Below, one piece after another: positions 20,345-51,710 of a stretch of 64,000 bases of DNA. Within the stretch, counting starts at the first letter, position 1, and the number at the start of each line of letters is the position of its first letter. Source of the stretch: Clostridiaceae bacterium Marseille-Q4143. GTDB taxonomy: Bacteria > Bacillota > Clostridia > Lachnospirales > Lachnospiraceae. The position numbers and the translations under genes are program-made. The notes below the pieces were generated by a model. That model was not told the DNA's origin. It worked only from the letters and a program-made list of their open reading frames with translations, and made no database searches. The stretch is taken from NCBI GenBank assembly GCA_018228645.1, contig CP073693.1, positions 744,001 to 808,000 on the forward strand, in the 5' to 3' direction.

Positions 20345-20611
20345 GGGCATATAATACATTTATTCTGTTTAATACCCAAAGAAGATATCAGAAATCTTGA
20401 AAATTCATTTTAGCAACCATATACAAAGAGCATTTGTACATATAGACTATCATGCTTTTCGACTGCCCAGATATTAGTACTTTCGTGGGTAGAGAATACT
20501 GCACTTCCTTTATATATCCAAATCGAACACTAAAATATGCTATTTATATAGAGTTTCAGATACTATGATTGATTCATCGGGCAGAATAGAAATTTTCGCT
20601 TTTATCTGCCC
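20345..20611. repeat. Dispersed structured intergenic element, copy A
   Basis: A 267-bp non-coding stretch that begins GGGCATATAATAC and ends TTTATCTGCCC, giving short imperfect terminal inverted repeats. It shares an ordered set of blocks with copies B and C: TATTCTGTTT near the left end, an internal CTGCCCA/TGGGTAG hairpin (near 20,463-20,494), TTTCAG about 60 bp from the right end, and a terminal GGGCAGA...ATCTGCCC hairpin (20,579-20,611). Sequence identity to B and C is modest but order and length are kept. It lies between the hemZ terminator and the hisS promoter. Confidence 0.7.
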
Positions 20612-20642
20612 GGCAGAACAGAAACTGACTGTCAGAACCGAA

Positions 20643-20698
20643 AAAAGGCCTGTCATAGAATAGATGACACCATCTATTCTGCAACAGTCCCTTTTCTT
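20643..20698 (-). terminator. Terminator of hemZ
   Basis: On the minus strand AAAGGGACTGT...ACAGGCCTTTTTT encloses a second perfect stem, AGAATAGATG-GTGT-CATCTATTCT. It starts directly after the hemZ stop and ends in T6. Confidence 0.85.
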
Positions 20699-22174
20699 TT
20701 AAATTCCATTTTTACAGAAAAATTGTTCTTTCCGTTCGATCATCTCATCGATCCGCTCAATGTATTGGCTGACATCTTTTACATTTTCGCATCGTTCAAT
20801 CCGGCTTTCCATAACTTCCGGCTGATCTGATGGAAGGACTACTTTAGTAGATGCACCCGCACCTGCTGCCAGAATCGTCTGCTTTTCCTCCATAATCAGA
20901 ATGTTGTAGATGCCTGCCTTATCCACTTTCGCATAACCGACATTTTCAAAATTACCTGCCATATTTTTCTGACGGTAGAGATAATAGGGAGACAGTTCCA
21001 TCTCGGCACAGTATCTGGCGGTCATATCCATGATCTGCATGTTATTTTCCAGACCCATCTCTTCATATTTATCTTTGAAAAGACTAAGCCTTGCTGCTCG
21101 CTTGATGGCAAGAGAATGAACCGTCACACTGTCCGGCGCCATCCTCTGTACTTCCTGCATGGTCCGTTCCACATCCTCATACGTCTCGCTCGGAAGTCCT
21201 ACGATGAGATCCATATTAATATGAGAAAATCCCATCTCACGGGCCAGCGCAAATGCTTCCTGCACCTGCACCACCGTATGTCTTCTGCCAATAATGTCCA
21301 GCGTCTTCTGATTCATGGTCTGGGGATTAATGGAAATCCGGTCAATACCGTGATCAAGAAGTACCTGTAACTTTTCTCTGGTAATGCTGTCCGGACGGCC
21401 TGCCTCTACAGTAAATTCCTGCAGATGTTCTGTATCAAAGCAACTCTGAATCTTCGTCAGCAGACGGTCCAGCTGATAAGGCTCCAGTGTGGTCGGTGTT
21501 CCGCCGCCAATATAAACTGTATTTAATTTTTTATGGCGGAACCGGCTAGATAAATAGTCCAGTTCCTTGCATAATGCATCCAGATACTCATCTACCCGTT
21601 TCCGCCAACGTTCCAGCGGGTAGGAAGAAAAAGAACAGTACAAACAGATGCTAGGGCAAAAGGGAATTCCCACATACAGACTATAACCGTCCTTGTAGTC
21701 AATATTTCTTAATACATACTGTTCCCGGTTGGCAATCATAACACTTAAAGCCACTTTCTCTTTGCTGGCTAAGTACGTATTTCTCATATATTCCGCAATT
21801 TCTACATTGCGTTTGCCCTGCTCCAGAAGTCCCATGGCAATCTTAGTAGGGCGGATACCGGTCAGCGTTCCCCAGGGAAGCTCCTGTCCTGTATAATTTG
21901 AAAGTTTCCGGTAGATCAGACGCTTCAGATGATTTTTTGTTTCTTTCCGGTCACTGTAGTCAATGGCCTGCTCGCCATTTTCTTTCAGACATCCGTCTTC
22001 TGTCACGGAAAATGACACCTGGTCGTCCGTGAAATGCACTGTCATCCGGATCTTGGTATCATCCGTAAATGTATCCTGTACTCTGACTTGCACGTCCTCC
22101 CGTGGAAAGAAAGCTTTCACCAGGGAATGAATATCATATTCAAAGCTTGGCCTATTTACAATTACTTCTATCAT
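20699..22174 (-). CDS. hemZ: Oxygen-independent coproporphyrinogen dehydrogenase-like radical SAM protein (HemZ)
   Basis: A 491-residue protein. An N-terminal extension of about 160 residues typical of HemZ precedes a radical SAM domain with CPSICLYCSF (C-x3-C-x2-C), GGGTPTTLE, EAGRPDSIT and INMDLIVGLPSE. The C-terminal part has YLYRQKNMAGNFENVGY, a HemZ marker. It belongs to the HemN/HemZ branch, proposed to oxidise coproporphyrinogen III anaerobically; haem synthesis itself is not evidenced here. In many relatives hemZ directly follows the metallo-hydrolase gene downstream of relA. Here that link is broken by about 9 kb. Confidence 0.92.
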   Translation of the reverse strand: MIEVIVNRPSFEYDIHSLVKAFFPREDVQVRVQDTFTDDTKIRMTVHFTDDQVSFSVTEDGCLKENGEQAIDYSDRKETKNHLKRLIYRKLSNYTGQELPWGTLTGIRPTKIAMGLLEQGKRNVEIAEYMRNTYLASKEKVALSVMIANREQYVLRNIDYKDGYSLYVGIPFCPSICLYCSFSSYPLERWRKRVDEYLDALCKELDYLSSRFRHKKLNTVYIGGGTPTTLEPYQLDRLLTKIQSCFDTEHLQEFTVEAGRPDSITREKLQVLLDHGIDRISINPQTMNQKTLDIIGRRHTVVQVQEAFALAREMGFSHINMDLIVGLPSETYEDVERTMQEVQRMAPDSVTVHSLAIKRAARLSLFKDKYEEMGLENNMQIMDMTARYCAEMELSPYYLYRQKNMAGNFENVGYAKVDKAGIYNILIMEEKQTILAAGAGASTKVVLPSDQPEVMESRIERCENVKDVSQYIERIDEMIERKEQFFCKNGI

Positions 22175-22259
22175 CTATCGTTCTATCCTCTCATTTTTCG
22201 CTCTTATGAAAAAAGTGTAACTCAAATATCTCCCGGTGGCAACCTTTTTCCTGCAAGTG

Positions 22260-22297
22260 AAAGACGGAGTCAGACACTGTGTTCTGACCCCGTCTTT
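22260..22297 (-). terminator. Hairpin after the 2-hydroxyacid dehydrogenase gene
   Basis: AAAGACGGGGTCAGA and TCTGACTCCGTCTTT pair almost perfectly on the minus strand, between the dehydrogenase stop (22,331) and the hemZ start (22,174). The T-run is weak, so termination may be partial. Confidence 0.6.
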
Positions 22298-22330
22298 CGG
22301 AGGTAGTATAATTATATCAACAAATTGTTT

Positions 22331-23293
22331 CTAGCAAACCAGATTATACGGTTTCTCTCCTTCAAGAAGTGTTCTCACACCCTGAAGCAATTCATGAATC
22401 ATCTCCACACGAACCTCTGCCACGTTGGTGCAGCAATGTGGAGTCATGACGATATTATCAAGCGCCGCAAGCTCCGGATTTACATTCGGTTCAAACTCCT
22501 GTACATCAAGAGCTGCGCCCTTGATCACATGGTTTTTCAAAGCATCCAGAAGAGCTGCTTCCTCTACAATCGGACCTCTGGAGGCATTGATGAGGTACGC
22601 ATCTTTCTTCATGAGCGCAAGCTTCTCTGCATTGATGAAATGTTTCGTTTCTTCCATCAGTGGAATGTGGATAGTTACCACATCTGCGTTTTTCAGTACT
22701 TCCTCGGCGGTCATGTACTGTGCTCCGCCCAGTTCTTCCTCTGCTTCCTTCGGAATTGCACCCTGGTTGGAGTAGATAATCTTCATTCCAAGGCCATGAG
22801 CCTTGCGGGCTACCATATGTCCAATTCTTCCCATTCCGATAACACCAAGCGTCTTTCCGTAGAGAACCATATCTCTGTAGAAGAACAGCTGACGTTTCAT
22901 CACCAGATCTCTCTTAAGCTCTCTGTCGTACTGTACAACACCACGGCATACGCTCATCATCAAAGCAACTGTCATCTCACTGGTGGCTTCCATTACAGAT
23001 CGCGGTGCGTTCAGCACATGAATTCCTTTTTCTTTTGCATAACGCCAGTCAACATTATCATATCCGGAACCGACATTTCCTACGATCTCCAGATTTTCTG
23101 CACTGTCGATGAGTTCCTGATCCATCTTAAAATCATGGTAGCAGATAAAGATATCTGCATCTTTGATGACTTCTTTTGCTTCTTCTTTGGTCCATGCGGT
23201 CAGTGGCTCCTTCGGAACTGCGACCTGCATGTCTGTTACATATTCTTCATAATATTCTTTCGGAATATTATGACTCAGAACAATCTTTTTCAT
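22331..23293 (-). CDS. D-isomer-specific 2-hydroxyacid dehydrogenase family protein
   Basis: A 320-residue NAD(P)-dependent oxidoreductase. The nucleotide-binding motif is GVIGMGRIGHMVARKAHGLGM (about 150-170). The catalytic Arg (INASRGPIV), Glu (LDVQEFEP) and His (MTPHCC) are in the expected order. It resembles glyoxylate/hydroxypyruvate reductases and phosphoglycerate dehydrogenase without the ACT domain. It follows tctA by six bases and is the last gene of the transporter unit, so its substrate is probably the imported acid or a derivative. Confidence 0.88.
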   Translation of the reverse strand: MKKIVLSHNIPKEYYEEYVTDMQVAVPKEPLTAWTKEEAKEVIKDADIFICYHDFKMDQELIDSAENLEIVGNVGSGYDNVDWRYAKEKGIHVLNAPRSVMEATSEMTVALMMSVCRGVVQYDRELKRDLVMKRQLFFYRDMVLYGKTLGVIGMGRIGHMVARKAHGLGMKIIYSNQGAIPKEAEEELGGAQYMTAEEVLKNADVVTIHIPLMEETKHFINAEKLALMKKDAYLINASRGPIVEEAALLDALKNHVIKGAALDVQEFEPNVNPELAALDNIVMTPHCCTNVAEVRVEMIHELLQGVRTLLEGEKPYNLVC

Positions 23294-23299
23294 ATCTTC

Positions 23300-24781
23300 C
23301 TATACTTCCTTTCTCTCTTTGAAATAGTGTCTGATTCCTTTGTAAATCGGCAGACTCAGAGAAATCAGTGCAACAACGATAAATGCACAGCTGATCGGGC
23401 GGCTGAAGAAGATAGAATAGCTTCCCTGTGTCATAACAAGACTACGACGAAGGTTACCTTCACACATCTGACCAAGAATCAGAGCAAGTACGATCGGAGA
23501 CAGCGGATATCCACCTTTAGTCAGCAGATATCCAATGACACCTGCAATAAACATCACAAGTACGTCATAGTAGTTATTATTGATTGCAAAAGATCCAATA
23601 GAGCAAAGTACCAGAATAACCGGGATCAGTACACGTTTCGGAATAGATACAATTCTCACAAACAACGGCTGCGCTGCAAATCCAAGGATCAAGACAAATA
23701 CATTTGCCAGCATAAAACCGGCGAAAATCGTCTGTACAGTAGTCAAATGAGTCATAAACAACTGCGGTCCCGGGATAAGATTATGCATCTGAAGAGCCCC
23801 CAACATAACTGCAGTGTTCGCATCTCCAGGGATACCAAGCGTCAGAAGTGGAATCAGTGCTCCGCCAGTCGTACCATTGTTGGAAGACTCCGGAGCTGCA
23901 ATTCCTTCCGGAATACCGGTGCCAAATTTCTCTGGATGTTTGGAAAGGCGCTTCTCCATATCATAGGAAATAAATGCACTGATGTCTCCTCCTGCACCAG
24001 GGATAATACCGATACCGGTGCCAGTCAGGCCTCCTCTGATAATAGTCGGTATAATAGTTTTCAAGTCACTCTTGCTGGGGAATGGATGCTTGGTTGCCTT
24101 CGCAGCAGGTCTCTCAGTAAACAAATCCTCACATGTGATGAAACACTGACTCAGTGCAAACAGGCCTACCAGAACCGGAATGAAGGAAAGACCGTTCATC
24201 AGGTAAACGCTTCCGAAGTTATAACGGCTGAATGCCGTAATGTTATCAATACCAATCAATGACAAAAGAATTCCAAGACATCCGGACATCAGCCCTTTTA
24301 CAAGGCTCTTGCCACTGATTCCTGCTATAATGGAAAGTCCGAAGAATGCCAGTGCAAATGACTCTGGTGCACTGAATTTCAGGGATACCATTGCAATTTT
24401 CTGCGCGATAAGAATCATAATCGTACCAGAAATAATTCCACCTCCGAAGGAAGCCAGCGTAGAAATACCAAGCGCTCGTCCGGCCTCACCTCTTAGAGTG
24501 AATGGATAACCATCAAGTACAGTTGCAGCTGCAGACGGTGTACCCGGTGTATTAATCAAAATTGCAGTAATAGAACCACCATACAGGGCTCCACAGAAAA
24601 TACCTATCAGCATCAACATACCTTCTGCAGGTCCCATACTGAAAGTCAGCGGCATCAGCAGGCAGACACCCATGGTGGAAGTCAGACCCGGCATGGCACC
24701 GAAAGAAATACCCATAATAACTCCGCCCAGTGTACACAGCAGAACTGAGGGCTGAAGCACTGCGGAAAGAACTTCTAACAT
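23300..24781 (-). CDS. Tripartite tricarboxylate transporter permease (TctA)
   Basis: A 493-residue polytopic membrane protein with about 11-12 helices. The TctA blocks are visible: GVIMGISFGAMPGLTSTMGVCLLMPLT at the N-terminus, FGGGIISGTIMILIAQ, GIIPGAGGDISAFISYDMEKRLSK and GIAAPESSNNGTTGGALIPLLTLGIPGDANTAVMLGAL. It is the large membrane subunit that uses a periplasmic-type binding protein to import carboxylates with a cation gradient. It lies 12 bp after tctB. SD AGGAGG precedes the start. Confidence 0.95.
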   Translation of the reverse strand: MLEVLSAVLQPSVLLCTLGGVIMGISFGAMPGLTSTMGVCLLMPLTFSMGPAEGMLMLIGIFCGALYGGSITAILINTPGTPSAAATVLDGYPFTLRGEAGRALGISTLASFGGGIISGTIMILIAQKIAMVSLKFSAPESFALAFFGLSIIAGISGKSLVKGLMSGCLGILLSLIGIDNITAFSRYNFGSVYLMNGLSFIPVLVGLFALSQCFITCEDLFTERPAAKATKHPFPSKSDLKTIIPTIIRGGLTGTGIGIIPGAGGDISAFISYDMEKRLSKHPEKFGTGIPEGIAAPESSNNGTTGGALIPLLTLGIPGDANTAVMLGALQMHNLIPGPQLFMTHLTTVQTIFAGFMLANVFVLILGFAAQPLFVRIVSIPKRVLIPVILVLCSIGSFAINNNYYDVLVMFIAGVIGYLLTKGGYPLSPIVLALILGQMCEGNLRRSLVMTQGSYSIFFSRPISCAFIVVALISLSLPIYKGIRHYFKERKEV

Positions 24782-24793
24782 AATTTTTCCTCC

Positions 24794-25255
24794 TTAAAAC
24801 AGCAGTCCCTTGGGAAGGTTTACATGTAGCAGGTTATGGAATACAAAGTACAGGACAGCTACCACGATAATCGGCAATATTGCTGAAAGTACTTTACTCT
24901 TCTCATGCACTTTGAAATAATAATTCAAGCCATATTGGAATACAATCGAACTTACAATAAATCCAACTTCTTTTATACAAATGATATATACAAGCGTAAT
25001 ACCCATAGTGAGCCATACACGCAAATTTTCTTTTTTAAAGATCGTTACTTTCTCTAATTCTGCCGGAATCATCTCTCCTTTAGAGAGAACCAGCTCCAGT
25101 ACTGACAACAGAATTACCAGTACACACATAATCCGCGGAAAATATCCAGGTCCGACAGCTCCGTTGCTTCCTGCCGGGAAACTAAGAGAAATGATAAAAA
25201 ATACTACTGCAACAGCAATAAAGATACAGGCTATCGCATTTGCAATTTTCTTCAT
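24794..25255 (-). CDS. Tripartite tricarboxylate transporter small subunit (TctB)
   Basis: A 153-residue protein with four predicted membrane helices and the GAVGPGYFPRIMCVLVILLS turn (about residues 33-52) characteristic of TctB. It is the small membrane subunit partner of the TctA encoded next. SD GGAGG precedes the ATG. A hairpin lies between it and tctC. Confidence 0.9.
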   Translation of the reverse strand: MKKIANAIACIFIAVAVVFFIISLSFPAGSNGAVGPGYFPRIMCVLVILLSVLELVLSKGEMIPAELEKVTIFKKENLRVWLTMGITLVYIICIKEVGFIVSSIVFQYGLNYYFKVHEKSKVLSAILPIIVVAVLYFVFHNLLHVNLPKGLLF

Positions 25256-25283
25256 TCTTATATTACCTCCTTCTTCGAAAATT

Positions 25284-25310
25284 GAGGCAAGGCACCAGAT
25301 GCCTTGCCTC
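25284..25310 (-). terminator. Intercistronic hairpin between tctC and tctB
   Basis: GAGGCAAGGCA and TGCCTTGCCTC form a perfect 11-bp stem with a 5-base loop just after the tctC stop. The following AATTTT is a weak T-run. It probably stabilises the tctC message or lowers tctBA expression. Confidence 0.7.
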
Positions 25311-25332
25311 TCTTTGCATTACATTCGTTTGA

Positions 25333-26454
25333 TTATTTTGTGGCAATTCCAAGCTGATGAGTCATCTCATCACAGATCTTGTCCATGCCATCAAGCAGTT
25401 CTGAGAACTCAGCTGCATCCATGTAATCATCAGTATAACTGTTGTTTGCCATGAATTCCTGTACTTCCGGCTGCGCCAGAGCATATCTGGTAGCTGCGTC
25501 AATATCATCGATTACTTCCTGAGAAGTTCCCTTTGGTGCAAGGAATCCACGATATACAACTACTTTGGAAGCATCGCCGTATCCACACTCTTCTGCAGTC
25601 GGTACATCCGGATAATCAGCCAGACGCTCCGGGCTGAAGGTCATAAGCATTTTCAGAAGACCAGACTCAAGATAAGTCTTACACTCACCATCAGAAACCG
25701 GTACACACTCTACATTTCCACCTGCCGCTGCAATTGCTGCCGGTCCACCGCCATCGCACGGAACATGAACAATATCTACACCTGCAAGTTCTGCGAATTT
25801 AGCAGAAAGCAAATGCCAAGGTCCACCGATACCGGAGTTGGAGAAGCGAACCTCACCCGGATGCTCTTTCATGTAAGCTACAAAATCTTCGATCGTATCA
25901 TACGGAGCGTCCTTCGGAACACAGATAGTTCCATAGCATGCATTGAAATTACAGATCGGCTCGAAATCTTTATAAGTATACTGGAAATCGGTTGTATACG
26001 GAAGTCCGTTCAGCTCTGCAACACCTGCGGTAATACAGGAACCATCGTTCGGATCAGTTGCACCTGCTGCAAATCCGATAGCACATCCACCGCCGGATTT
26101 GTTAACTACAGTAATCGGTACATTTAAGTACTCTTCCATGTAGATTGCCAGCTGACGGATCAGAACGTCCGTACCACCACCTGCTGAAGGCGGAACTGTA
26201 ATCTGAAGAGAAGACGCTGGATAATTGTCGATCGGAGTCAGTTCCGCATCAGCACTTCTGTCACCAGTTGCTGCATCCGTAGTTTCCGTTGCTGCATCAG
26301 CAGTGTCCTCTGCCTCTGCATCATCTGCGGTCTCTTCTGCTGCAGCATTGTCAGTCTGCGCATTGTCTGTTGTTGCTGATCCTGAAGAACCACATGCAGT
26401 CGTTACAAGCATGGCAGCTGTCAGAAGCAGTGCAACAAGTTTCTTGTTTTTCAT
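25333..26454 (-). CDS. Tripartite tricarboxylate transporter substrate-binding lipoprotein (TctC)
   Basis: A 373-residue TctC-type binding protein. The signal peptide ends in lipobox VTTACGS (Cys 21). A 50-residue acidic Ala/Thr/Asp linker follows. The domain core has ITVPPSAGGGTDVLIRQLAIYMEEYLNVPITVVNKSGGGCAIGFAAGA, the family's carboxylate-binding loop region, and VRFSNSGIGGPWHLLSAKFAE. It is the first gene of the transporter unit, with a promoter 60-90 bp upstream, and is divergent from the TIM-barrel gene. Confidence 0.94.
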   Translation of the reverse strand: MKNKKLVALLLTAAMLVTTACGSSGSATTDNAQTDNAAAEETADDAEAEDTADAATETTDAATGDRSADAELTPIDNYPASSLQITVPPSAGGGTDVLIRQLAIYMEEYLNVPITVVNKSGGGCAIGFAAGATDPNDGSCITAGVAELNGLPYTTDFQYTYKDFEPICNFNACYGTICVPKDAPYDTIEDFVAYMKEHPGEVRFSNSGIGGPWHLLSAKFAELAGVDIVHVPCDGGGPAAIAAAGGNVECVPVSDGECKTYLESGLLKMLMTFSPERLADYPDVPTAEECGYGDASKVVVYRGFLAPKGTSQEVIDDIDAATRYALAQPEVQEFMANNSYTDDYMDAAEFSELLDGMDKICDEMTHQLGIATK

Positions 26455-26516
26455 ACCATTCCCTCCTGGTTTTGCAAAATCTCAAAATGCATTTCCCTCT
26501 CGCATTTCATGCATTT

Positions 26517-26545
26517 AGCATAGCGTTTTTTGTCATTTTTTTCAA
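26517..26545 (-). promoter_or_regulatory. Promoter of the tctCBA-dehydrogenase unit
   Basis: TTGAAA (26545-26540) and TATGCT (26522-26517) are 17 bp apart on the minus strand. Confidence 0.65.
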
Positions 26546-26633
26546 TTTGGAATAGTTGACAAGCTTTTATCAATGTTTTTATTGCATTTAAACATTGACT
26601 GTGTCAGTTTTATGTCAAAGTTAGTCCAAATTC

Positions 26634-26677
26634 AGTTATGACTTTTCTGTGACTTTTTCATGAAAAATTTATGTCAT
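26634..26677. promoter_or_regulatory. Four tandem 11-bp repeats, candidate response-regulator operator
   Basis: Consecutive 11-mers AGTTATGACTT, TTCTGTGACTT, TTTCATGAAAA and ATTTATGTCAT share a TATGACTT-like core in register. A related pair (TTTTATGTCAA, AGTTAGTCCAA) lies at 26,609-26,630. OmpR/PhoB-type regulators bind direct repeats with 11-bp periodicity. The array lies between tctC and the TIM-barrel gene, and an OmpR-family regulator is encoded about 2.5 kb away. Confidence 0.5.
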
Positions 26678-26725
26678 TCGTTGACACATTTCGAATATAT
26701 GTTTGATTGACGTTAGGGACCTGCA

Positions 26726-27715
26726 ATGCTACCATCTTCACATATTAAAGAAGAGGGGGCCAACTGTGCCATGACTAATTTTGAATCACGCATTCGCTTC
26801 GGATTCAGTCCTTCCATGCTGTTTCCGAAATCCTTTGAAGATCCGTACATGCATTTTGCAGCTATTCAGACCTGCTGTCACTGTGCACCTTATGAAAGTT
26901 TTGAGACTTTTCTTCCTGACGATGCAGCCATGAGGAAATTATGTATTCAGAGTATGAAGAAACATGAAATCACCCTTCACTATAATACTCCTGGAGTCTT
27001 CCAGCTGGATGGAGAATTCAATCCGTGCAGTGATAATCCAGAATATCGGAAAAACGCTCTGGAGCTCGCAAAAACACAGATTGAATATGCTGCAGAGGCA
27101 GAGTCTCCGATCATCGTATTTACTGGATGCCCTGATAAGGGAGAGGAAAGAAGACCAGAACTTTTAAAGATGTATATGGAATATTTCCTGCAGCTGGCCG
27201 AGTTTTGCCGTACTTTCAATATGGAGATCACCATTGAACCTATCGAGCGCCACCGCTTCAAAAAACTCCTGCTCGGGCCATGCAAAGACTGTGCAGACTT
27301 TATGCTGGAAGCTCAGAAAAATGGAGCAAATAATGCTCATCTGATGCTTGATATTGCTCATCTTCCTCTGATGGAAGAAACCATGGAAGCCGCTACCAGG
27401 GAAGTTTTGCGTGCCGGACTGATTCATGTTCATATGGGAGATGCTGTTCTCGATGAGAAAAGTGTCTTCTATGGACATACTCATCCACCTGTAGGTGTAC
27501 AAAATGGTACCTTTGATCTGGTAGAGCTGACTCATCAGTTCATGGTACTGTTTGAGTGTGGTTACATTCCACATACTACCGGACAGAAACGTGCCAATAT
27601 TTCTCTGGAAGTGCGTCCATATCCGGGATGTGATGAACTGACTTCCATCAGACTCATGTATGAAAAAATGAAGACTGCATGCGATCTCGCTGCACACAAA
27701 CTGGGAATTTACTAA
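26726..27715 (+). CDS. Sugar phosphate isomerase/epimerase-like TIM-barrel protein
   Basis: Up to 329 residues. It fits the AP-endonuclease-2-like TIM-barrel fold, with metal-ligand type positions in ITIEPIERHRF, HLMLDIAHLPL, AGLIHVHMGDAV and a late ISLEVRPYPG. The substrate cannot be read from sequence. The start is uncertain: the ATG at 26,771 (MTNFESRIRFGF) has GAGGGGG 11 bases upstream and begins where the fold does, while the ATG at 26,726 has AGGG seven bases upstream. It is divergent from tctC across the repeat array and converges on the histidine kinase gene. Confidence 0.8.
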   Translation: MLPSSHIKEEGANCAMTNFESRIRFGFSPSMLFPKSFEDPYMHFAAIQTCCHCAPYESFETFLPDDAAMRKLCIQSMKKHEITLHYNTPGVFQLDGEFNPCSDNPEYRKNALELAKTQIEYAAEAESPIIVFTGCPDKGEERRPELLKMYMEYFLQLAEFCRTFNMEITIEPIERHRFKKLLLGPCKDCADFMLEAQKNGANNAHLMLDIAHLPLMEETMEAATREVLRAGLIHVHMGDAVLDEKSVFYGHTHPPVGVQNGTFDLVELTHQFMVLFECGYIPHTTGQKRANISLEVRPYPGCDELTSIRLMYEKMKTACDLAAHKLGIY

Positions 27716-27719
27716 AAAA

Positions 27720-27754
27720 ATGAGGAAAGGCTTTTTATAGAAGCCTTTCCTCAT
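27720..27754. terminator. Bidirectional terminator between the TIM-barrel and histidine kinase genes
   Basis: A perfect 14-bp stem, ATGAGGAAAGGCTT / AAGCCTTTCCTCAT, with a 7-base loop, preceded by A-rich sequence. It overlaps the last codons of the kinase gene, so the kinase C-terminus is encoded in the stem. Confidence 0.8.
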
Positions 27755-29237
27755 ATGGAATATGAACCGTTACCTTGGTTCCTTTATATTCTTCACTTTC
27801 CAGTGAAAGTGTAAAATTCATAAGCGATGCAATCTCGTTTGCAATGGCAAGTCCAAGCCCGTTTCCGGATTTATTGCCAGTATTGGACGCACGGAACTGA
27901 TGCTGGAAGACCTGATCTACCTCCGTTTTCGGAATACCGCATCCTTCATCCTGTACAACCAGTTCCAGAGCTTTTTCCTTTTCTGTAAGCTGAATCCAGA
28001 CATGTGCTCCTCTTTCGCTGTATTTGATGGCATTTTCTGTAAAAATAATAATCAACTGGCGGATTCTGGTGTAGTTTCCATTTACCACCGTATATTCCGG
28101 TGCAAGTGTTCTGTCAAGCCAGAGCTCTATCCCTTTCCCGTCAGCCGCAGGACTGAGACTTTGATAGACATCATTTAAAATGTCCGTCAGACAGCATGGT
28201 TCTTTCTCCATCTTATATCCGGGAGCCTGCAATCTGGAGAGTGTCAGAAGATCATCCACCATGTGCTGGATATAAATTGTTTCGCGCAAAATACTATCAT
28301 AATATCCCGGCAGTTCCTCTTCCGTGGCCAGACCATCTTTTAATAATTCTGTTTGAGCCCTGAGTGCCGCCACTGGCGTCTTCAGTTCATGTGAAACATT
28401 ATTAAAAAAATTACGGCGGTTTTCATCATCTCTATCGCGGCGTTGTTGCTCTTCTTCCAGCTTGTCCGCCACTTCATCCAGCGTGCGAGCCAACCGTCCG
28501 ATCTCATCTGTACGGTTTGCTACATCAGACCCTGAAAAACGGCTTAAAGACCAGGCTTCCAGCGCAGAAGTGATATTATTGAGCGGTGAGGCCAAAATTT
28601 GGGAAAACCCTTTCTGTGCATTGATTAAAAACGCAAATGACAATATCAGAGAAAGTCCAATCGTCAAAAAAACAGGGAACAGCCTTGTGATCACATCTCT
28701 AGTATAGATACTGGTGATCACAATTCCCCCGGAATTACCAGTATACCCTCTAATAGGAACCGCCACATTCCATCTGGAAAAATGATTCCGAACTCCCGGC
28801 CATTCTGTCGTAAGCTCATCATTTTTGATTGCCTCACGAAATACATAGAAAAAATCTGGCGGCAAAAGCTCAAATACTACCTGCTCCAGTTTTTCACTGT
28901 ACTGACTTGTAACTCCATTGGGAAACACCACATAAATATGAACCTTCTCCGGACGGGAATATTTATTCAGGTCATTTAACTGTTGAAGGAAATGAACGGT
29001 CTGCGATTCATTAAAATATTTTTCCATTGTGAGATTCCTGGTTGTGTCTTCAAACTGAACCGTTACACGGTTTGCCATGTCCACCAGTTCATCCGTATAA
29101 AGATATGACAGATTAATGTAACAAAAAGATATCAGCAGAAGCCCATTCAGAAGAATCATTCCTATACTGTAAATGCGGGAAATGCGGCTTACCAGAGAAT
29201 ATTCTTTTTTATGAGATTTATCTTTCCGTATATTCAA
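27735..29237 (-). CDS. Membrane sensor histidine kinase
   Basis: A 500-residue kinase. Helix 1 (about 24-44) and helix 2 (about 188-208) flank an extracellular sensor of about 140 residues. A HAMP-like region, the HisKA H-box (NNVSHELKTPVAALRAQ), N-box (IFTENAIKYSERG), G1 (VVQDEGCGIPK) and G2 (SGNGLGLAIANEI) follow. It probably starts at a TTG at 29,237 that overlaps the response-regulator gene by 20 bp. It should sense an extracellular ligand, by context the acid taken up by the TctABC system, and phosphorylate the adjacent regulator. Confidence 0.92.
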   Translation of the reverse strand: MNIRKDKSHKKEYSLVSRISRIYSIGMILLNGLLLISFCYINLSYLYTDELVDMANRVTVQFEDTTRNLTMEKYFNESQTVHFLQQLNDLNKYSRPEKVHIYVVFPNGVTSQYSEKLEQVVFELLPPDFFYVFREAIKNDELTTEWPGVRNHFSRWNVAVPIRGYTGNSGGIVITSIYTRDVITRLFPVFLTIGLSLILSFAFLINAQKGFSQILASPLNNITSALEAWSLSRFSGSDVANRTDEIGRLARTLDEVADKLEEEQQRRDRDDENRRNFFNNVSHELKTPVAALRAQTELLKDGLATEEELPGYYDSILRETIYIQHMVDDLLTLSRLQAPGYKMEKEPCCLTDILNDVYQSLSPAADGKGIELWLDRTLAPEYTVVNGNYTRIRQLIIIFTENAIKYSERGAHVWIQLTEKEKALELVVQDEGCGIPKTEVDQVFQHQFRASNTGNKSGNGLGLAIANEIASLMNFTLSLESEEYKGTKVTVHIPYEERLL

Positions 29238-29910
29238 ACTGATACCCCACTCCCCATACCGTCTTGATATCCCAGTTCGGATGAGGCTGCTGAGACAGTA
29301 TCAGACGCATACGTTTTACCTGCGAATCAACAGCACGGATATCTCCATGATATTCCTCACCCCATAGCTGTTCCAGAAGAGTTTCTCTTGTAAAAGTACG
29401 ATGCGGTTTGCTGGCAAGCGTCCACAGAATCTCAATTGCTTTTTTTGCAAGTCCGAGAGGTTCTCCGTTGACCGTTACAGAATAACTGGACAAGTCAATC
29501 TTCAAATTGTCGATGTTCAGGATCTGGTGAGCAGCCAGATCACTGTAATTACTCATGCGACGCAGAATGGCACGGATACGCGCCATTACTTCACCAGGAC
29601 TGAACGGCTTTACAATGTAATCATCCGCTCCAATGTCGAGGCCCATGATACGCTCGAAATCCTCGCCTCTGGCAGTGATGAGAATAATCGGTATGTTACT
29701 CGTTTTACGGATATGCCTGCAGACTTCAAATCCATCTACTTTAGGCATCATGACGTCAAGCAGCACAAGGCTGACCTGATTTTTTTCATACAGATCAATG
29801 GCCTGTTCACCGTCCTTTGCCAGTATAACTTTATAACCCTCGTTCAGTGCGTACCGTTCCAATACTGATAATATCTGTTCGTTATCGTCAGCAATTAATA
29901 CTGTAGCCAT
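29218..29910 (-). CDS. OmpR/PhoB-family response regulator
   Basis: A 230-residue regulator. The receiver has ATVLIADDNEQIL, the phospho-acceptor VLLDVMMPKVDGFE, ILITARGE and DYIVKPFSPGEV. The C-terminal winged helix ends TVWGVGYQFEYTER. The ATG at 29,910 has GGAGG nine bases upstream, better than the starts further up. It overlaps the kinase gene. It is the likely ligand of the 11-bp repeat array at 26,634. Confidence 0.94.
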   Translation of the reverse strand: MATVLIADDNEQILSVLERYALNEGYKVILAKDGEQAIDLYEKNQVSLVLLDVMMPKVDGFEVCRHIRKTSNIPIILITARGEDFERIMGLDIGADDYIVKPFSPGEVMARIRAILRRMSNYSDLAAHQILNIDNLKIDLSSYSVTVNGEPLGLAKKAIEILWTLASKPHRTFTRETLLEQLWGEEYHGDIRAVDSQVKRMRLILSQQPHPNWDIKTVWGVGYQFEYTER

Positions 29911-29956
29911 TGACCTCATCCTCCCTGTTTTTTGCAAATTCTTAACATATTTTTTA

Positions 29957-29985
29957 ATTATAAGATACAAACGAAAACTTTACAA
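29957..29985 (-). promoter_or_regulatory. Promoter of the two-component genes
   Basis: TTGTAA (29985-29980) and TATAAT (29962-29957) have a 17-bp spacer on the minus strand, in the 99-bp gap shared with the divergent aldolase gene. Confidence 0.7.
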
Positions 29986-30009
29986 GTAATAAACATAAGG
30001 AGGCTTCTT

Positions 30010-30912
30010 ATGAAAGCACAATTTTTAACACCTGTCGTTACTGTTTTTGAAAATGACGGTATTACTCCGTCATGGGAAGAGACCGCAAAAGTTCATGATT
30101 TCCTTATTGAGAACGGTATGGACGGCCTTGTCCTCATGGGCAGCACTGGTGAATTTTTCTCCATGTCCATGGAAACTCAGAAAGCATACATTGATTTTGC
30201 CGCTAAGATCTTAACAGGCCGCACCCGCATCTTTATTGGAACCACCCGTATGAATCTTGCGGAAACTATCGAGCTGACCAACTATTCTGTCTCCAAAGGA
30301 CTGAATGAAGTCATGATCGTAAGTCCGTATTACTTCCGCCTGCCGGAGACTTCTCTGGAAGAATGGTACAGTCAGATTGCCGAGCATACAGATGCGCACA
30401 TCTTCCTTTACAATTTTCCGGACCGCACCGGACATGATCTAACTCCGGAACTAGTCGTAAAACTTGCTCAGAAATATCCGAACATCGTGGGAATCAAAGA
30501 TACCGTAACTCCTATGAACCACACCAGTAATATCTTAAGCGCTGTCATGAAAGTCCGCCCGGACTTCGAAGTATTCAGCGGATTTGATGACAATCTCATT
30601 CACAACATCGCAGGCGGCGGAGCCGGATGCATCGGCGGCCTTTCCAACCTGATCCCGGAGAAATGTGCAGCCTGGACCAGATCCATTCGCGAAGGTGATT
30701 TCAAAGCCATGTCCGACTGGCAGCAATATTTCAACGACGCCATGGCTCTCTATAATATCTGTACTCCGTTCATTCCTGCCGTTAAATATGCTATGAATCT
30801 TCGCGGCCTGGGAATCAACGAGACCTGCAGCGCACCCATCCTCCCTCCCAATGAAGCACAGAAAAAGCAGCTTCAGAAGTTGCTTGAAAAGCTGAATATT
30901 AAGCCGCTGTAG
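30010..30912 (+). CDS. DHDPS/N-acetylneuraminate lyase family aldolase
   Basis: A 300-residue TIM-barrel aldolase. Markers are LVLMGSTGEFFSMS (pyruvate-carboxylate loop), VSPYYFRLPE, FLYNFPDRTGHDL (catalytic Tyr) and NIVGIKDTVTP (Schiff-base Lys). Members cleave or form 2-keto acids from pyruvate and an aldehyde (dihydrodipicolinate, 2-keto-3-deoxy sugar acids, sialic acid). The neighbourhood (TTT transporter, 2-hydroxyacid dehydrogenase, TIM-barrel isomerase, own two-component system) points to a catabolic aldolase acting on a sugar acid and not to lysine synthesis. AAGGAGG lies six bases before the ATG. Confidence 0.88.
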   Translation: MKAQFLTPVVTVFENDGITPSWEETAKVHDFLIENGMDGLVLMGSTGEFFSMSMETQKAYIDFAAKILTGRTRIFIGTTRMNLAETIELTNYSVSKGLNEVMIVSPYYFRLPETSLEEWYSQIAEHTDAHIFLYNFPDRTGHDLTPELVVKLAQKYPNIVGIKDTVTPMNHTSNILSAVMKVRPDFEVFSGFDDNLIHNIAGGGAGCIGGLSNLIPEKCAAWTRSIREGDFKAMSDWQQYFNDAMALYNICTPFIPAVKYAMNLRGLGINETCSAPILPPNEAQKKQLQKLLEKLNIKPL

Positions 30913-30921
30913 GATTGCGTA

Positions 30922-30976
30922 ACAGTACCAGCCTGTAAAGGGAACCACAAGTGGAGCTTTTACAGGCTGGTACTGT
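30922..30976 (+). terminator. Long-stem terminator after the aldolase gene
   Basis: A perfect 18-bp stem (30,922-30,939 with 30,959-30,976) encloses a 19-base loop containing GGAACCAC-AA-GTGG. The T-run afterwards (TTTGTATC) is short. The stretch 30,977-31,108 that follows is AT-rich with nothing recognisable. Confidence 0.75.
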
Positions 30977-31108
30977 TTGTATCTACTTCATTTCAAATCG
31001 TTAATCATCGTGATTTTTCGGTATTTTTATTCTTTATTCCAGCATTCACTGCAGATTTTCTCCACATCATAATCTGAGGTCTACTGCATCTATTTTTTAA
31101 TTTCATTT

Positions 31109-31374
31109 GGGCATATAATGCTTTTATTCTGTTTCAAATCCAAAATTCCTATCAAAAAACTTATTTCCTATTATACAAGCTCACATCTTTCGTCTGATTG
31201 GACCTATGGAAAAATTCACATTGTCTCCACCCAAATTTTCTGACTCTCCCGGGCAGAATAAGCCCTGGATTCTCTATAGGTCCAATTACCGATTAAAACT
31301 TACTTTTTCGCGAAGAATTCAAGGACTTTCACCGCTTCCGTGGGCAGAGAGTAAAGGGATTTTACTATCTGCCC
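31109..31374. repeat. Dispersed structured intergenic element, copy B
   Basis: A 266-bp non-coding element beginning GGGCATATAATGC and ending TTTACTATCTGCCC. Shared blocks with copy C include TCCAAAATT near position 31, GTCTCCACCCAAAT in the middle, and the terminal hairpin GGGCAGA-GA-GTAAA...TTTAC-TA-TCTGCCC. A perfect 11-bp stem (31,198-31,208 with 31,277-31,287) encloses the CCACCC block. It lies between convergent genes, the aldolase and the metallo-hydrolase. Confidence 0.75.
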
Positions 31375-31423
31375 AAACAATGGGTCAGCAAGTAAAAATC
31401 CACGGAATTGCACTTCCCCACGC

Positions 31424-31473
31424 ATAAAAAGCCACCGTCTCACAGATGATTACCTATCTATGAAACAGTGGCT
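31424..31473 (-). terminator. Terminator after the metallo-hydrolase gene
   Basis: On the minus strand AGCCAC...GTGGCT with a second inner stem (AGAT/ATCT region) is followed by T5, just after the stop at 31,483. Confidence 0.85.
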
Positions 31474-31482
31474 CCTTCACGC

Positions 31483-43434: not shown

Positions 43435-43452
43435 CTTTTCCCTCCTGTTCAC

Positions 43453-43488
43453 GAAAAAAGGATGAGCGTATCACACTCATCCTTTTTC
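43453..43488 (-). terminator. Terminator of ispE, directly before gerA
   Basis: AAAAAGGATGAG and CTCATCCTTTTT form a perfect 12-bp stem with A- and T-runs on both sides. It ends only about ten bases before the gerA SD, so the germination operon promoter must overlap or lie upstream with read-through. Confidence 0.85.
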
Positions 43489-43526
43489 TGAAGTCCAGTA
43501 TTTCCCGTCTTCCTTATTTTATGCAA

Positions 43527-44408: not shown

Positions 44409-44444
44409 CATTATCTCCTTGTTCCAATCAAACTATTTATTCTT

Positions 44445-44473
44445 ATTTTAATCTATTTACGGCAGGGATACAA
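44445..44473 (-). promoter_or_regulatory. Promoter of ispE
   Basis: TTGTAT (44473-44468) and TAAAAT (44450-44445) are separated by 17 bp on the minus strand. Confidence 0.7.
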
Positions 44474-44497
44474 TTCTTTTCTTTCATGCCGCTGCTT

Positions 44498-46078: not shown

Positions 46079-46093
46079 TCTTTTCCTCCCCTT

Positions 46094-46492
46094 TTACTCA
46101 AATACGACAGAAAGTCCCGGATCTTCCAGTTTCAGCACAATATACGGGCAGGTAACAAGACTTTCCGTCTTCTCCGCATTTCCCGGTCCCAGCAATTCCG
46201 TATCCACATACACTGCATTTTCCGTCAGATACAGATCCTTTACCGCAATGCTGTATCCGCTGCTTTTCTGTTCTCCATATCCCTCACAAATATACAGATA
46301 TCCTTCATCCTTATAGGTTACCTTGAAAGGTGATGTTTTCTTCTCCTCCAGCACATTCAGCAGTTCTTCCGGCATTTCTTCCGGTGCAAGCACTGTGAAA
46401 TCAAGACTTTTCAGTTTCTTCGGACTCTGCTTTTCAATTCCACACCCACAGAACAGGAGCGCTGTCAGAAGCAACAGACATATTTTTCGCAT
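46094..46492 (-). CDS. Lipoprotein with PrcB C-terminal-like domain
   Basis: A 132-residue protein with signal and lipobox LLFCGCG (Cys about 15-17). The mature part has YLYICEGYGEQKSSGYSIAVKDLYLTENAVYVDTELLGPG and CPYIVLKLED, the pattern of the PrcB C-terminal family of protease-complex accessory or stress proteins. It is encoded just upstream of the SPOCS-LysM gene. Function unknown. Confidence 0.75.
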   Translation of the reverse strand: MRKICLLLLTALLFCGCGIEKQSPKKLKSLDFTVLAPEEMPEELLNVLEEKKTSPFKVTYKDEGYLYICEGYGEQKSSGYSIAVKDLYLTENAVYVDTELLGPGNAEKTESLVTCPYIVLKLEDPGLSVVFE

Positions 46493-46563
46493 AGAACCGT
46501 TTCTCTCTTTCTTATTTGCTCTAGTCTATGAAGAAAAAAAGCATTTAAGACCAGTCTTCTTCC

Positions 46564-46592
46564 TTGTATTCCGGTTGCCAGTAAAGTATAAT
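46564..46592 (+). promoter_or_regulatory. Promoter of malQ-plsC-ddl-murF
   Basis: TTGTAT (46,564-46,569) and TATAAT (46,587-46,592) with a 17-bp spacer, about 50 bp before the malQ start. Confidence 0.75.
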
Positions 46593-46641
46593 GTTACGGA
46601 CAGGATATTCACAAAAAAGTATAAAAGGGAGTACATAAACG

Positions 46642-48168: not shown

Positions 48169-48193
48169 TGCGTACCGTTTTAAGGAGTTTTAT

Positions 48194-48925
48194 ATGATAC
48201 GTTTAATTTTAATAGCAACAATTCTGATCCTTTATCTGATCATCGGCATTCCGGTTCTTCTGATCGAATGGGTGATTGGTAAATTCAATCCCCGCGCAAG
48301 AGATATCAGCAGTCTTCGTATGGTACAGACAGCCTTCAAACTCATGCTGTGGATCACCGGTTCCGATATTACCTATATCGGTCATGAAAATGTGCCAAAA
48401 GATCAGGCTGTTCTCTATGTCGGAAATCACTGCAGCTATTTTGATATTCTGCTCACCTATTCCATGTGTCCGGATCTGACCGGATATGTGGCGAAGGCAG
48501 AGATGCTCAAAGTACCACTCCTGCGCGACTGGATGAAACGGCTTTATTGTCTTTTCCTGGATCGTTCCAACGTCAAGGAAGGATTAAAAACCATTCTGAC
48601 TGGTATTGAATATATTAAGAAGGGAATCTCTATCTGTATTTTCCCGGAAGGCACCAGAAGTAAGGACGGAAACATGATTCCGTTCAAAGAAGGCAGCATG
48701 AAGATAGCATCCAAAACCGGATGTCCCATCATTCCCATTGCCATTACCAATTCCGCGCAGATCTGGGAAGCACATCTTCCTTATATCAGACCTGCCCATG
48801 TCATCGTAGAATACGGTGCACCCATTTACCCGAAGGAACTTTCCAAAGAAGACCAGAAGTTTCTCGGGTCCTATGCCCAGCATAAAATTCAGGAAATGCT
48901 GGATCAGCATAAACAGGAGGATTGA
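48194..48925 (+). CDS. plsC: 1-acyl-sn-glycerol-3-phosphate acyltransferase
   Basis: A 243-residue membrane-associated acyltransferase. A hydrophobic N-terminus (LILIATILILYLIIGIPVLLI) precedes VGNHCSYFDILL (HX4D motif) and IFPEGTRSKDGNMIPFKEGSMKIA. It makes phosphatidic acid from lysophosphatidic acid. SD AAGGAG precedes the ATG. The 3' end adjoins the ddl start. Confidence 0.93.
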   Translation: MIRLILIATILILYLIIGIPVLLIEWVIGKFNPRARDISSLRMVQTAFKLMLWITGSDITYIGHENVPKDQAVLYVGNHCSYFDILLTYSMCPDLTGYVAKAEMLKVPLLRDWMKRLYCLFLDRSNVKEGLKTILTGIEYIKKGISICIFPEGTRSKDGNMIPFKEGSMKIASKTGCPIIPIAITNSAQIWEAHLPYIRPAHVIVEYGAPIYPKELSKEDQKFLGSYAQHKIQEMLDQHKQED

Positions 48926-48927
48926 TT

Positions 48928-49989
48928 ATGAAAATCGTAGTTCTTGCAGGAGGCATCAGTACCGAACGTGATGTATCTCTCTGCAGTGGAAGAAATATTT
49001 ATGAAGCATTAAAAGGAAACGGACACGATGTGGTTCTGGTGGACTTATTTCTGGGTCTGCCGGAAGAAAAAGAACCATTAGATCATCTGTTCACAGATGA
49101 TCGCGACTGGTCTGCTTCTGTTGGTACCATTGCGGAGGATGCCCCGGATATCGCCCATGTAAAAGCGCTCCGTCCTGATTACAGAAGTCTTCTGGGACCA
49201 AATGTCCTGAAACTCTGCGAACTGAGTGATATGGTATTTCTGGCTCTTCACGGAGAGAACGGAGAGGACGGCAAGATTCAGGCCCTCTTCGATCTGATGG
49301 GCATCCACTATACCGGAACCGGGTACACCAGCAGTGCCCTCTGCATGGATAAAAACATTACCAAGCAGATGTTCCGGGGACGGAATGTTCCGACACCTCC
49401 CGGTATCACCGTTCAGAAAGGAAAACCATTCCGTCTTCCGGAAAGCGTCGGTTATCCCTGCATGGTCAAAACCTGCTGCGGCGGTTCTTCCGTAGGTGTT
49501 TACCGTGTAAATGATGCCTCCGAACTGGAGAAAGCACTGGATGAAGCCTTTACCTTTGAAGATCAGGCCATCATTGAGCGCTGCATTATCGGCCGTGAAT
49601 TTTCCATTGCCGTTATCGAAGGGGAAGCACTCCCGATCATTGAGATCGCACCGATCAGCGGCTTTTATGATTATAAAAATAAATACCAGCCCGGCAGCAC
49701 CATCGAGACCTGCCCGGCGAAACTTCCGGAAGAGACCGCTGTCCGCATGCAGCGTCACGCAGAAGCAGCCTGTGCTTCCGTAGGAATCGAAGGATATGCC
49801 CGTGTGGACTTCATGCTGGATGACCGTACCGGTGAAGACTATGCACTGGAGGTCAATACCCTTCCCGGCATGACCCCTACCAGTCTGATGCCCCAGGAAG
49901 CACAGGCGATTGGTTACTCTTTCCCGCAGCTCTGTGAGTGGATTCTGAATGTTTCCATGAAGAAATACGCGAATACGGAAAGGAACTAA
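48928..49989 (+). CDS. ddl: D-alanine-D-alanine ligase
   Basis: A 353-residue ATP-grasp ligase for the peptidoglycan dipeptide. It shows VVLAGGISTERDVSLCSG, LALHGENGEDGKIQALFDLMG, YPCMVKTCCGGSSVGV (ATP loop), IERCIIGREFSIAV, YARVDFMLD and EVNTLPGMTPTSLMPQEA. The ATG at 48,928 has AGGAGG seven bases upstream; a TTG two codons before is less likely. It is followed three bases later by murF. Confidence 0.95.
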   Translation: MKIVVLAGGISTERDVSLCSGRNIYEALKGNGHDVVLVDLFLGLPEEKEPLDHLFTDDRDWSASVGTIAEDAPDIAHVKALRPDYRSLLGPNVLKLCELSDMVFLALHGENGEDGKIQALFDLMGIHYTGTGYTSSALCMDKNITKQMFRGRNVPTPPGITVQKGKPFRLPESVGYPCMVKTCCGGSSVGVYRVNDASELEKALDEAFTFEDQAIIERCIIGREFSIAVIEGEALPIIEIAPISGFYDYKNKYQPGSTIETCPAKLPEETAVRMQRHAEAACASVGIEGYARVDFMLDDRTGEDYALEVNTLPGMTPTSLMPQEAQAIGYSFPQLCEWILNVSMKKYANTERN

Positions 49990-49992
49990 CCC

Positions 49993-51348
49993 ATGAAACA
50001 TTTTACTGTCAGACAGTTTAAAGATGCATGTCATGCACGTTATTTTGGACCGGAAGAAGCGCTCGACCAGGAACTTTCCGGTGTGGAGACCGACAGCCGC
50101 GGGGTCACGAAAGGCACTCTCTTTGTCGCCATTCCCGGAGAACGTGTTGATGGCCACAAATTCATTCCGGACGTCTATGCCAAAGGGGCTGTCTGTGCCT
50201 TAAGCCAGCAGGAGCTGACCGATCCAGCAGGCCCTTATCTTCTGGTGGAAGATACCCAGCAGGCCCTGAAAGAGGCCGCTGAAAGCTATCGCCAGACACT
50301 TGGCATTCCGGTTATCGGTATTACCGGAAGTGTAGGAAAGACCAGCACCAAGGAGATGGTAGCTTCCATTTTGAGCCAGAAATATAATGTTCTGAAAACC
50401 CAGGGAAATTTTAACAATGAACTTGGTGTGCCACTGACCATTTTTCGTATCGGAGAAGAACATGAGGTGGCAGTCATCGAGATGGGCATGAACCATTACG
50501 GCGAGATGCATCGCCTAAGCAAAATGGTGCGCCCGACCCACTGTCTCTTCACCAACATCGGCGTTGCCCATCTGGAATTTCTTGGTTCCAGAGACGGTAT
50601 TTTAAAAGCGAAATGTGAGATGTTTGATTATGCTGCTGACGATGTAAAAGCATTCGTCAACGGGGACGATGATAAACTGATTACGTTAAAAGACATTGCC
50701 CGTACTTTCGGTATGGACCCGTCCCGTGATGTGTGGGCGGATTCTGTGGAGAAGTTGGGATTCGACGGTGTCCGCTGCCGGATTCACACAGACACAAAAA
50801 ACTCCTTTGAAGTAGTCATTCCCCTTCCCGGCACCCACATGGTCTACAATGCCATGGCAGGTACCTGCATCGGATTGGCCTTAGGACTTTCCATCGACGA
50901 AATCCGTGCCGGCATCGAAAGTTTAAAGCCGCTGCCCGGCCGCAGCAATATTCTTCATACCGAACATTACACATTGCTTGATGACTGCTACAACGCAAAC
51001 CCGGCTTCCATGATGGAATCCCTGAACGTGCTGGATGACACCCACTCCCGAAAAGTAGCCATCCTTGGTGACATGGGAGAACTCGGTCCCCAGTCCGACA
51101 CACTCCATGCTTCCGTGGGCAAGCATCTGAAAAATCTGCATGTGGATATTCTTGTGACTATCGGAACTTTGAGCGCCGCTCTTCACGAAGCAGCAAAGAA
51201 ATCTGCTCCGCAGACCAGATGCCTGCACTTTGCAGATGTGGACAGTTTCTTAAAAGAAACCGATCAGATCTTAAAATCCGGCGATGCCGTTCTCGTAAAA
51301 GCGTCCCATTCCATGGGATTTACAAAGATCGTGGAGGCACTGCAGTAA
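49993..51348 (+). CDS. murF: UDP-N-acetylmuramoyl-tripeptide-D-alanyl-D-alanine ligase
   Basis: A 451-residue Mur ligase. The N-terminal substrate domain has SGVETDSRGVTKGTLFVAIPGERVDGHKFI. The ATP loop is VIGITGSVGKTSTKEMVASIL, then NFNNELGVPLTIF, LDDCYNANPASMMESL and AILGDMGELG. It adds D-Ala-D-Ala to the UDP-MurNAc tripeptide, directly downstream of ddl in the pathway and on the chromosome. A long-stem terminator follows. Confidence 0.96.
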   Translation: MKHFTVRQFKDACHARYFGPEEALDQELSGVETDSRGVTKGTLFVAIPGERVDGHKFIPDVYAKGAVCALSQQELTDPAGPYLLVEDTQQALKEAAESYRQTLGIPVIGITGSVGKTSTKEMVASILSQKYNVLKTQGNFNNELGVPLTIFRIGEEHEVAVIEMGMNHYGEMHRLSKMVRPTHCLFTNIGVAHLEFLGSRDGILKAKCEMFDYAADDVKAFVNGDDDKLITLKDIARTFGMDPSRDVWADSVEKLGFDGVRCRIHTDTKNSFEVVIPLPGTHMVYNAMAGTCIGLALGLSIDEIRAGIESLKPLPGRSNILHTEHYTLLDDCYNANPASMMESLNVLDDTHSRKVAILGDMGELGPQSDTLHASVGKHLKNLHVDILVTIGTLSAALHEAAKKSAPQTRCLHFADVDSFLKETDQILKSGDAVLVKASHSMGFTKIVEALQ

Positions 51349-51353
51349 GCAAA

Positions 51354-51409
51354 AAAGTGCCATCCTGTGAGGAGGAACCGCTAACGTTCTTTTCACAGGA
51401 TGGCACTTT
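51354..51409 (+). terminator. Long-stem terminator after murF
   Basis: A perfect 17-bp stem (51,354-51,370 with 51,393-51,409) with a 22-base loop carrying GGAACC, preceded by A-run and followed by TTTCTC. Stem length and the loop GGAACC recall the terminator at 30,922. Confidence 0.85.
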
Positions 51410-51445
51410 CTCTATCATGAAGATGCCGGGGATCTTAAAGATGTT

Positions 51446-51710
51446 GGGCATATGGCGTTTTCATCCCGTCCTTCGTCCAAAATTTATGATAAAAATCTCA
51501 TTTTCTATCATATTACTGCATATTGCGAGTTAATTTGGCAGATAGAAAAATCTGCATCGTCTCCACCCAAATATCTCCGTTTTTCTGGGTGTAATGACCT
51601 GTGGATTTTCCATATCGCCAAACTGACTTCCAAATCCGCTTTTTCCCGGAAATTTCAGCTATTAGGACAGACTCTTTGGGTGAGAATAAAGCTTGTTTTT
51701 CTATCTGCCC
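51446..51710. repeat. Dispersed structured intergenic element, copy C
   Basis: A 265-bp non-coding element starting GGGCATATGGCG and ending TTTTTCTATCTGCCC. It shares TCCAAAATT, TTTTCTAT, GTCTCCACCCAAATATC and the right-end block with copy B in the same order. A 14-nt perfect complement joins 51,538-51,551 (GGCAGATAGAAAAA) to 51,697-51,710, and an inner CACCCA/TGGGTG hairpin lies near 51,564-51,592. It ends 16 bp from the stop of the CarD-like gene. Confidence 0.75.

Follow-up and report, generated by a model that had tools for sequence, protein, structure and literature searches.

Three elements of 265 to 267 bp, here called e1, e2 and e3, are the subject of this report; they lie in a stretch of 64,000 nucleotides (the window) from Clostridiaceae bacterium Marseille-Q4143, a member of the Lachnospiraceae (assembly GCA_018228645.1, contig CP073693.1, positions 744,001 to 808,000). 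We consider it probable (about 0.7) that they belong, as scattered clusters of sites, to a nuclease-repeat system organized like the RAYT/REPIN systems but built around an unrelated enzyme. The elements consist of 33-bp units with a five-base “key” at their ends, and related elements are found in other Lachnospiraceae together with genes for a predicted nuclease. Co-occurrence, adjacency and key matching of nuclease and units are observed directly in the sequences, and from these we infer binding, cutting and mobilisation.

Architecture of the elements

Each of the three elements comprises four 33-bp units, two rightward (U1, U2) and two leftward (U3, U4), with gaps of 57–58, 18 and 58–59 bp. 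U2 and U3 are mirror images 18 bp apart, and U1 and U4 lie outside them; in some copies of the family, U1 or U4 is not visible. These spacings were taken from the unit coordinates given below; the automatic key rule returned no usable spacing for e2 and e3, and one within range for e1. All three copies bear imperfect 8-bp terminal inverted repeats (GGGCATAT / ATCTGCCC, 7/8 complementary).

20345..20611, + strand: element e1, 267 bp, between hemZ and a hisS/hisZ-type gene
20345..20377, + strand: e1 unit U1, 33 bp, GGG...CCC
20436..20468, + strand: e1 unit U2, 33 bp, ends GTACATATAG / CTGCCC
20487..20519, - strand: e1 unit U3, 33 bp, mirror of U2, 18 bp beyond U2
20579..20611, - strand: e1 unit U4, 33 bp, GGGCAGA...TCTGCCC
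31109..31374, + strand: element e2, 266 bp, downstream of a relA / metallo-hydrolase gene pair (both on the - strand)
31109..31141, + strand: e2 unit U1
31200..31232, + strand: e2 unit U2, GGACC...CACCC
31251..31283, - strand: e2 unit U3, GGGCA...GGTCC
31342..31374, - strand: e2 unit U4, a hairpin with arms of 14 bp
51446..51710, + strand: element e3, 265 bp, between murF and a CarD-domain gene
51446..51478, + strand: e3 unit U1
51536..51568, + strand: e3 unit U2, TGGCA...CACCC
51587..51619, - strand: e3 unit U3, GGGTG...TCGCC
51678..51710, - strand: e3 unit U4, GGGTGAG...ATCTGCCC

An earlier note on this DNA had placed three copies of 267, 266 and 265 bp at these coordinates, which is borne out, and had described a conserved order of blocks. 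The order holds, but the blocks are not unrelated boxes; they are the four units, whose ends are complementary in most cases. Three matches to GGGCATAT-N{212,242}-GGG-N22-ATCTGCCC occur in the window and none in 100 dinucleotide shuffles. The three pairs of copies scored 30, 14 and 59 in global alignment, whereas shuffled sequences averaged about -46 (standard deviation 7.0–7.6; best of 300, -20), placing the pairs 8–14 standard deviations above dinucleotide shuffles. No reading frame is common to all copies, as the note had stated: the longest stop-to-stop frames span 51, 85 and 88 codons in e1, e2 and e3, and a conserved frame, considered on account of the latter two, was rejected as e1 has none such.

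Neither nhmmer nor two covariance models found a fourth copy in the window. Exact-pattern matches in genome contigs (nine) and viral contigs (one) came from unrelated or unplaced organisms, had no profile support and were attributed to chance. Three more patterns yielded 0, 9 and 0 stretches in viral contigs, none with convincing profile support, and blastn of e2 against plasmids and phages returned short chance matches only.

Related elements in Lachnospiraceae

Searched at E ≤ 1, the nearest genus (17 genomes) had no match to a model of the central hairpin built from the window copies alone (R1). Among 397 Lachnospiraceae genomes, R1 matched 6 at E ≤ 0.05, with 8.7e-7 and 5.0e-6 as the lowest values; the four weaker genomes, whose E-value alone is not significant across 397 genomes, were accepted by reading the sequences. 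It was on reading the R1 matches that the 33-bp units with complementary ends were seen. A broader covariance model (R2), with which 110 first-look candidates per genome were scored, detected elements in 8 of 39 genomes, at 52 loci with E ≤ 0.01 (G696, 18; G532, 10; G683, 9; G617, 5; G619, 4; G623, 3; G541, 2; G424, 1), and none in the other 31. The 39 genomes are a non-random sample, composed of the 6 matched by R1, the 17 of the nearest genus and 16 with high HemZ scores; G623 and G424 entered it through HemZ alone.

Within most elements, one five-base key is common to both ends of the units, as judged from 63 matches (the tandem locus L113, the duplicate L132:2501 and the weak loci L162–L164 were left out; an 8-mer key test was too permissive and was discarded). 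Keys vary between elements, even within one genome: G683 has GTATC, GGGTC, GTATG and GGCAA types. GGGCA is not kept at the outer ends of U2 and U3 in e2 and e3, those of e2 still being mutually complementary, and outer ends deviate from the key in e1 as well. The surroundings of 59 elements (window and G633 left out) comprise 30 co-directional, 9 convergent and 8 divergent gene arrangements, 7 elements at an edge and 5 inside an open reading frame (ORF) of at least 150 aa.

Several other repeats were noticed around these loci. In G696 (L117–L119, L121–L123, L146, L149), elements are often preceded, left of U1, by a different palindrome, AACAGTTCAG...CTGAACTGTTAC in type, which could be an additional repeat or else a terminator. 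Several elements of G532 (L126–L131) lie beside minisatellite-like tandem arrays of unrelated sequence. Similar near-perfect palindromes of 43 bp (GGCATATGTCAA...TTGACATATGCC), which may be a different repeat, occupy positions 2501–2543 of both L162 (G751) and L163 (G747), in nearest-genus genomes without the nuclease.

A predicted nuclease accompanies the elements

When 334 ORFs around the elements were clustered, one so far undescribed family recurred beside elements in five genomes, while other neighbour families reached at most three; in both G541 and G532, the gene of this family sits between two elements. Its product, about 255 aa long, is a stand-alone protein. Across the 39 genomes, the gene occurs in exactly the eight that contain elements, apart from a partial match within a 1,224-aa ORF of G753. 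Five genomes had served to discover the family, and the independent test of co-occurrence is therefore restricted to G696, G623 and G424, all three of which possess the gene, versus 0 of the 31 non-element genomes with a full-length copy. Five genes are present in G617, four in G683 (one partial and apparently broken), two each in G696, G623 and G424, and one in each of the others. Weak model matches in G633, G747, G750 and G751, where the nuclease was not found, were taken as chance. The 64-kb window contains no member of the family, and no relative was found in viral contigs.

Many partner genes have such units in their own flanks, with keys specific to the gene. At least four units sharing a key occur in 8 of 18 partner-gene flanks (at least five in 7), and in two sets of control windows the corresponding counts are 1 of 17 and 0 of 92; in the remaining ten flanks, units were read by eye or none were evident. 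The same scan of the 64-kb window gave triples and two fours in about 87 overlapping windows, none with five, and these were taken as chance. Upstream of the nuclease gene, L195 (G617) and L192 (G424) each present seven units of 33 bp that recur about every 53 bp with a CRISPR-like regularity, and in L191 the units are about 84 bp apart. CRISPR-type spacers were considered for L195 and rejected, given that the stretches between its units look alike.

Exact gene-flank keys equal those of dispersed elements for GTATC, GGTCC and GGCAA; further pairings, made by eye, concern GTATG (L189), GGGCG (L188), AGGCA (L190) and, in 40-bp units, GGGCATATATAG (L193). For the GGGTC elements of G683, no partner gene with that key was found in G683. 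At L204, a stand-alone homologue in a faecal contig, the script detected two shared-key units, no more than in controls.

Fold and active site of the partner protein

The partner domain is predicted to belong to the PD-(D/E)XK (restriction-endonuclease-like) nucleases, a prediction on which fold model and profile matches concur. An AlphaFold2 model based on 103 aligned homologues (predicted local distance difference test, 94.5; predicted template modelling score, 0.65) places long N-terminal helices before a restriction-endonuclease-like domain. Foldseek returned weak matches only, none at E ≤ 0.001; Bax1 and restriction enzymes ranked near the top, and VIA-align gave borderline informative values of 8.5 for Bax1 and 8.2 for TnsA. 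The PADLOC profile PDC-S68 matches the C-terminal half with values reaching 4.5e-32. Three of five partner proteins also have a weak match to a model named PD-(D/E)XK. Pfam and NCBIfam scans of these five proteins at E ≤ 10 gave no credible match, the best Pfam value of 0.00055 lying below that family's cut-off, and no Y1 transposase was among the matches.

The motifs RSK.E, DFT and EH.G, with acidic, catalytic-type residues, are invariant in an alignment of 17 products, which omits the broken copy in L196 from the 18 genes. The PD-(D/E)XK motif usually includes a lysine after the last acidic residue, which does not stand at its usual place in these proteins. At E ≤ 1e-5, 3029 homologues of the protein were found; among the 120 listed, two are named, both as “ATPase”, perhaps on account of a nuclease-like domain shared with annotated AAA ATPases.

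Spacing and helical phasing

The gaps between units cluster at 18, 28–29, 38, 47–48 and 57–59 bp with a few outliers, and the outer gaps can differ within one element. When related values are collapsed into 36 genome-by-gap classes, a period of 10.0 bp emerges (R=0.73), a value that none of 2000 null sets reaches. R2 incorporates the 33-18-33 core and thus partly imposes the 18-bp class; hence, the analysis was rerun without gaps below 25 bp. The rerun yielded a period of 10.4 bp (R=0.71), reached by one null set in 2000, with some outlying gaps remaining. Steps of about 10 bp suggest sites aligned along one face of double-stranded DNA bound by protein, more than they suggest RNA.

Genomic setting in the window and its relatives

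The genes next to e1 and e3, and two of those near e2, are as follows.

18785-20098, - strand: hisS/hisZ-type gene
20699-22174, - strand: hemZ
25333-26454: TctC-type receptor gene, between the metallo-hydrolase gene and hemZ
29218-29970: response regulator gene, between the metallo-hydrolase gene and hemZ
49993-51348, + strand: murF
51727-52293, - strand: CarD-domain gene

Lachnospiraceae or near kin are indicated by these surroundings (hemZ, relA, murF) and by the closest HemZ proteins, with identities of 94%, 83% (“Eubacteriales bacterium”) and 78% (“Lachnospiraceae bacterium”). The product of gene 18785-20098 scores above the hisS cut-off and also matches models of HisZ (ATP phosphoribosyltransferase regulatory subunit) below their cut-offs. 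In 10 of 14 nearest-genus loci, the aligned ranges of hemZ and hisS are adjacent, no more than 189 bp apart; the corresponding gap in the window is 600 bp and contains e1. The metallo-hydrolase gene adjoins hemZ in 11 of the 14 loci. In the window (22331-31482), several genes separate the two, and e2 is located at the edge, between these genes and the relA / metallo-hydrolase pair. No element was found in the 14 loci (best E-values, 0.86 with nhmmer and 1.1 with R2). The earlier note's suggestion of a clonal mobile unit divides: mobility gains support from the element not being found at the same operon of related species, and clonality is contradicted by the divergence of the copies (148–174 identities over 270–274 columns).

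In the nearest-genus genomes examined, neither elements nor nuclease were found, although e1 to e3 look old; the proposed nuclease-repeat system would require lineage-specific retention or the import of several elements.

Alternative explanations

A multicopy structured non-coding RNA or RNA regulatory motif acting through the central hairpin is unlikely, even though covariation is evident: among 11 aligned cores from seven genomes (window included), 15 of 25 pairs have changes on both sides, with a score of 0.343 versus 0.161 in shuffled and at most 0.153 in slid alignments, and the three-copy alignment folds better than 200 of 200 column shuffles on both strands. However, such covariation arises because the complementary unit ends pair with each other, which requires no RNA; both strands fold about equally well; and the quantised gaps, together with unequal outer gaps in one element, suit double-stranded DNA. 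At gathering score, Rfam had no match in the window and two in 20 relative loci (T-box, S10 leader), neither over an element, in line with the note's remark that no named family was recognised. Its “selection on structure” accordingly stands in so far as hairpin pairing covaries, but phased DNA sites whose ends are complementary are a better reading of this structure than an RNA; an additional role of the hairpins may exist.

That the elements are operators of a domesticated DNA-binding regulator, and not mobile, appears quite improbable. The regular arrays upstream of several partner genes (e.g., L192 and L195), the helical phasing and the mostly intergenic placement would fit, but acidic catalytic-type residues are kept across the 17 products, all gene orientations occur, and the number of loci at E ≤ 0.01 ranges from 1 to 18 per carrier genome. 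An ordinary miniature inverted-repeat transposable element (MITE), i.e., a deleted insertion sequence relative moved by a DDE transposase, is very improbable. The imperfect terminal repeats, small size, rarity inside ORFs (5 of 59) and failure to find the element in the syntenic operon of relatives speak for it; against it, flanking direct repeats of 13 four-unit elements are at most 3 bp, as in the null, with no target-site duplication seen, keys differ widely among the elements of one genome (G683), and the most widely recurring neighbour is a nuclease-like protein.

Comparison with known systems

In reports on RAYT/REPIN systems (REPtrons), a TnpA-REP tyrosine transposase is paired with dispersed, mostly intergenic repetitive extragenic palindromic (REP) sequences in inverted pairs; the single-gene partner is flanked by repeats, several partner-repeat families occur per genome, and co-evolution is proposed (PMC3116915, PMC8266576, PMC3733652). 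The system described here likewise has dispersed intergenic inverted doublets, partner genes flanked by their own repeat and several partner-repeat families in one genome. It differs in that the partner has a predicted restriction-endonuclease-like domain and a helical N-terminal part instead of an HUH (Y1) fold, in that units start with variable keys (GGGCA, GTATC, GGTCC) and have no GTAG tag, and in that 33-bp units are typically arranged in fours with helical phasing.

From TnsA of Tn7, the partner differs by an identity of about 9% and its long N-terminal helical region; no Tn7-type TnsB or TnsC stood out among the recurrent neighbours, which were clustered without a profile scan. The phage-defence candidates PDC-S68 and PDC-S69 resemble it in the C-terminal nuclease-like part matched by PDC-S68, but these profiles span 1,202–1,273 positions (PDC-S69, 289), in contrast to a stand-alone protein that often has flanking arrays. 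Like ERIC, BIME and Correia-type repeats, the elements are short, palindromic, intergenic and multicopy. Those repeats keep a genome-wide consensus, whereas ends are here shared within an element and different between elements. MITEs of DDE transposons share the terminal inverted repeats but would be expected to differ in target-site duplication.

Proposed mechanism and implications

In the proposed nuclease-repeat system, each nuclease would bind units with its own key, probably several together on one DNA face. It would act on its flanking array and thereby regulate itself, and would disperse or maintain the scattered four-unit elements, as proposed for RAYTs with REPINs. Outside the window, the genome of its species is predicted to contain a nuclease gene whose key is of the GGGCA type.

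In broader terms, we lean slightly towards an as yet undescribed selfish or domesticated system of Lachnospiraceae, in which stand-alone PD-(D/E)XK nucleases read their own fast-changing five-base keys and key and protein co-diversify, as a non-HUH, double-stranded-DNA counterpart of REPtrons. No description of this repeat-nuclease pairing was found in the literature, judged by titles and the beginnings of abstracts. If true, it would be a second, independently built bacterial repeat-plus-nuclease partnership, in a major gut family. The changing keys would allow direct tests of specificity by exchanging natural protein-DNA pairs, and the system would account for one type of palindrome scattered across gut genomes while offering many natural nuclease-site pairs.

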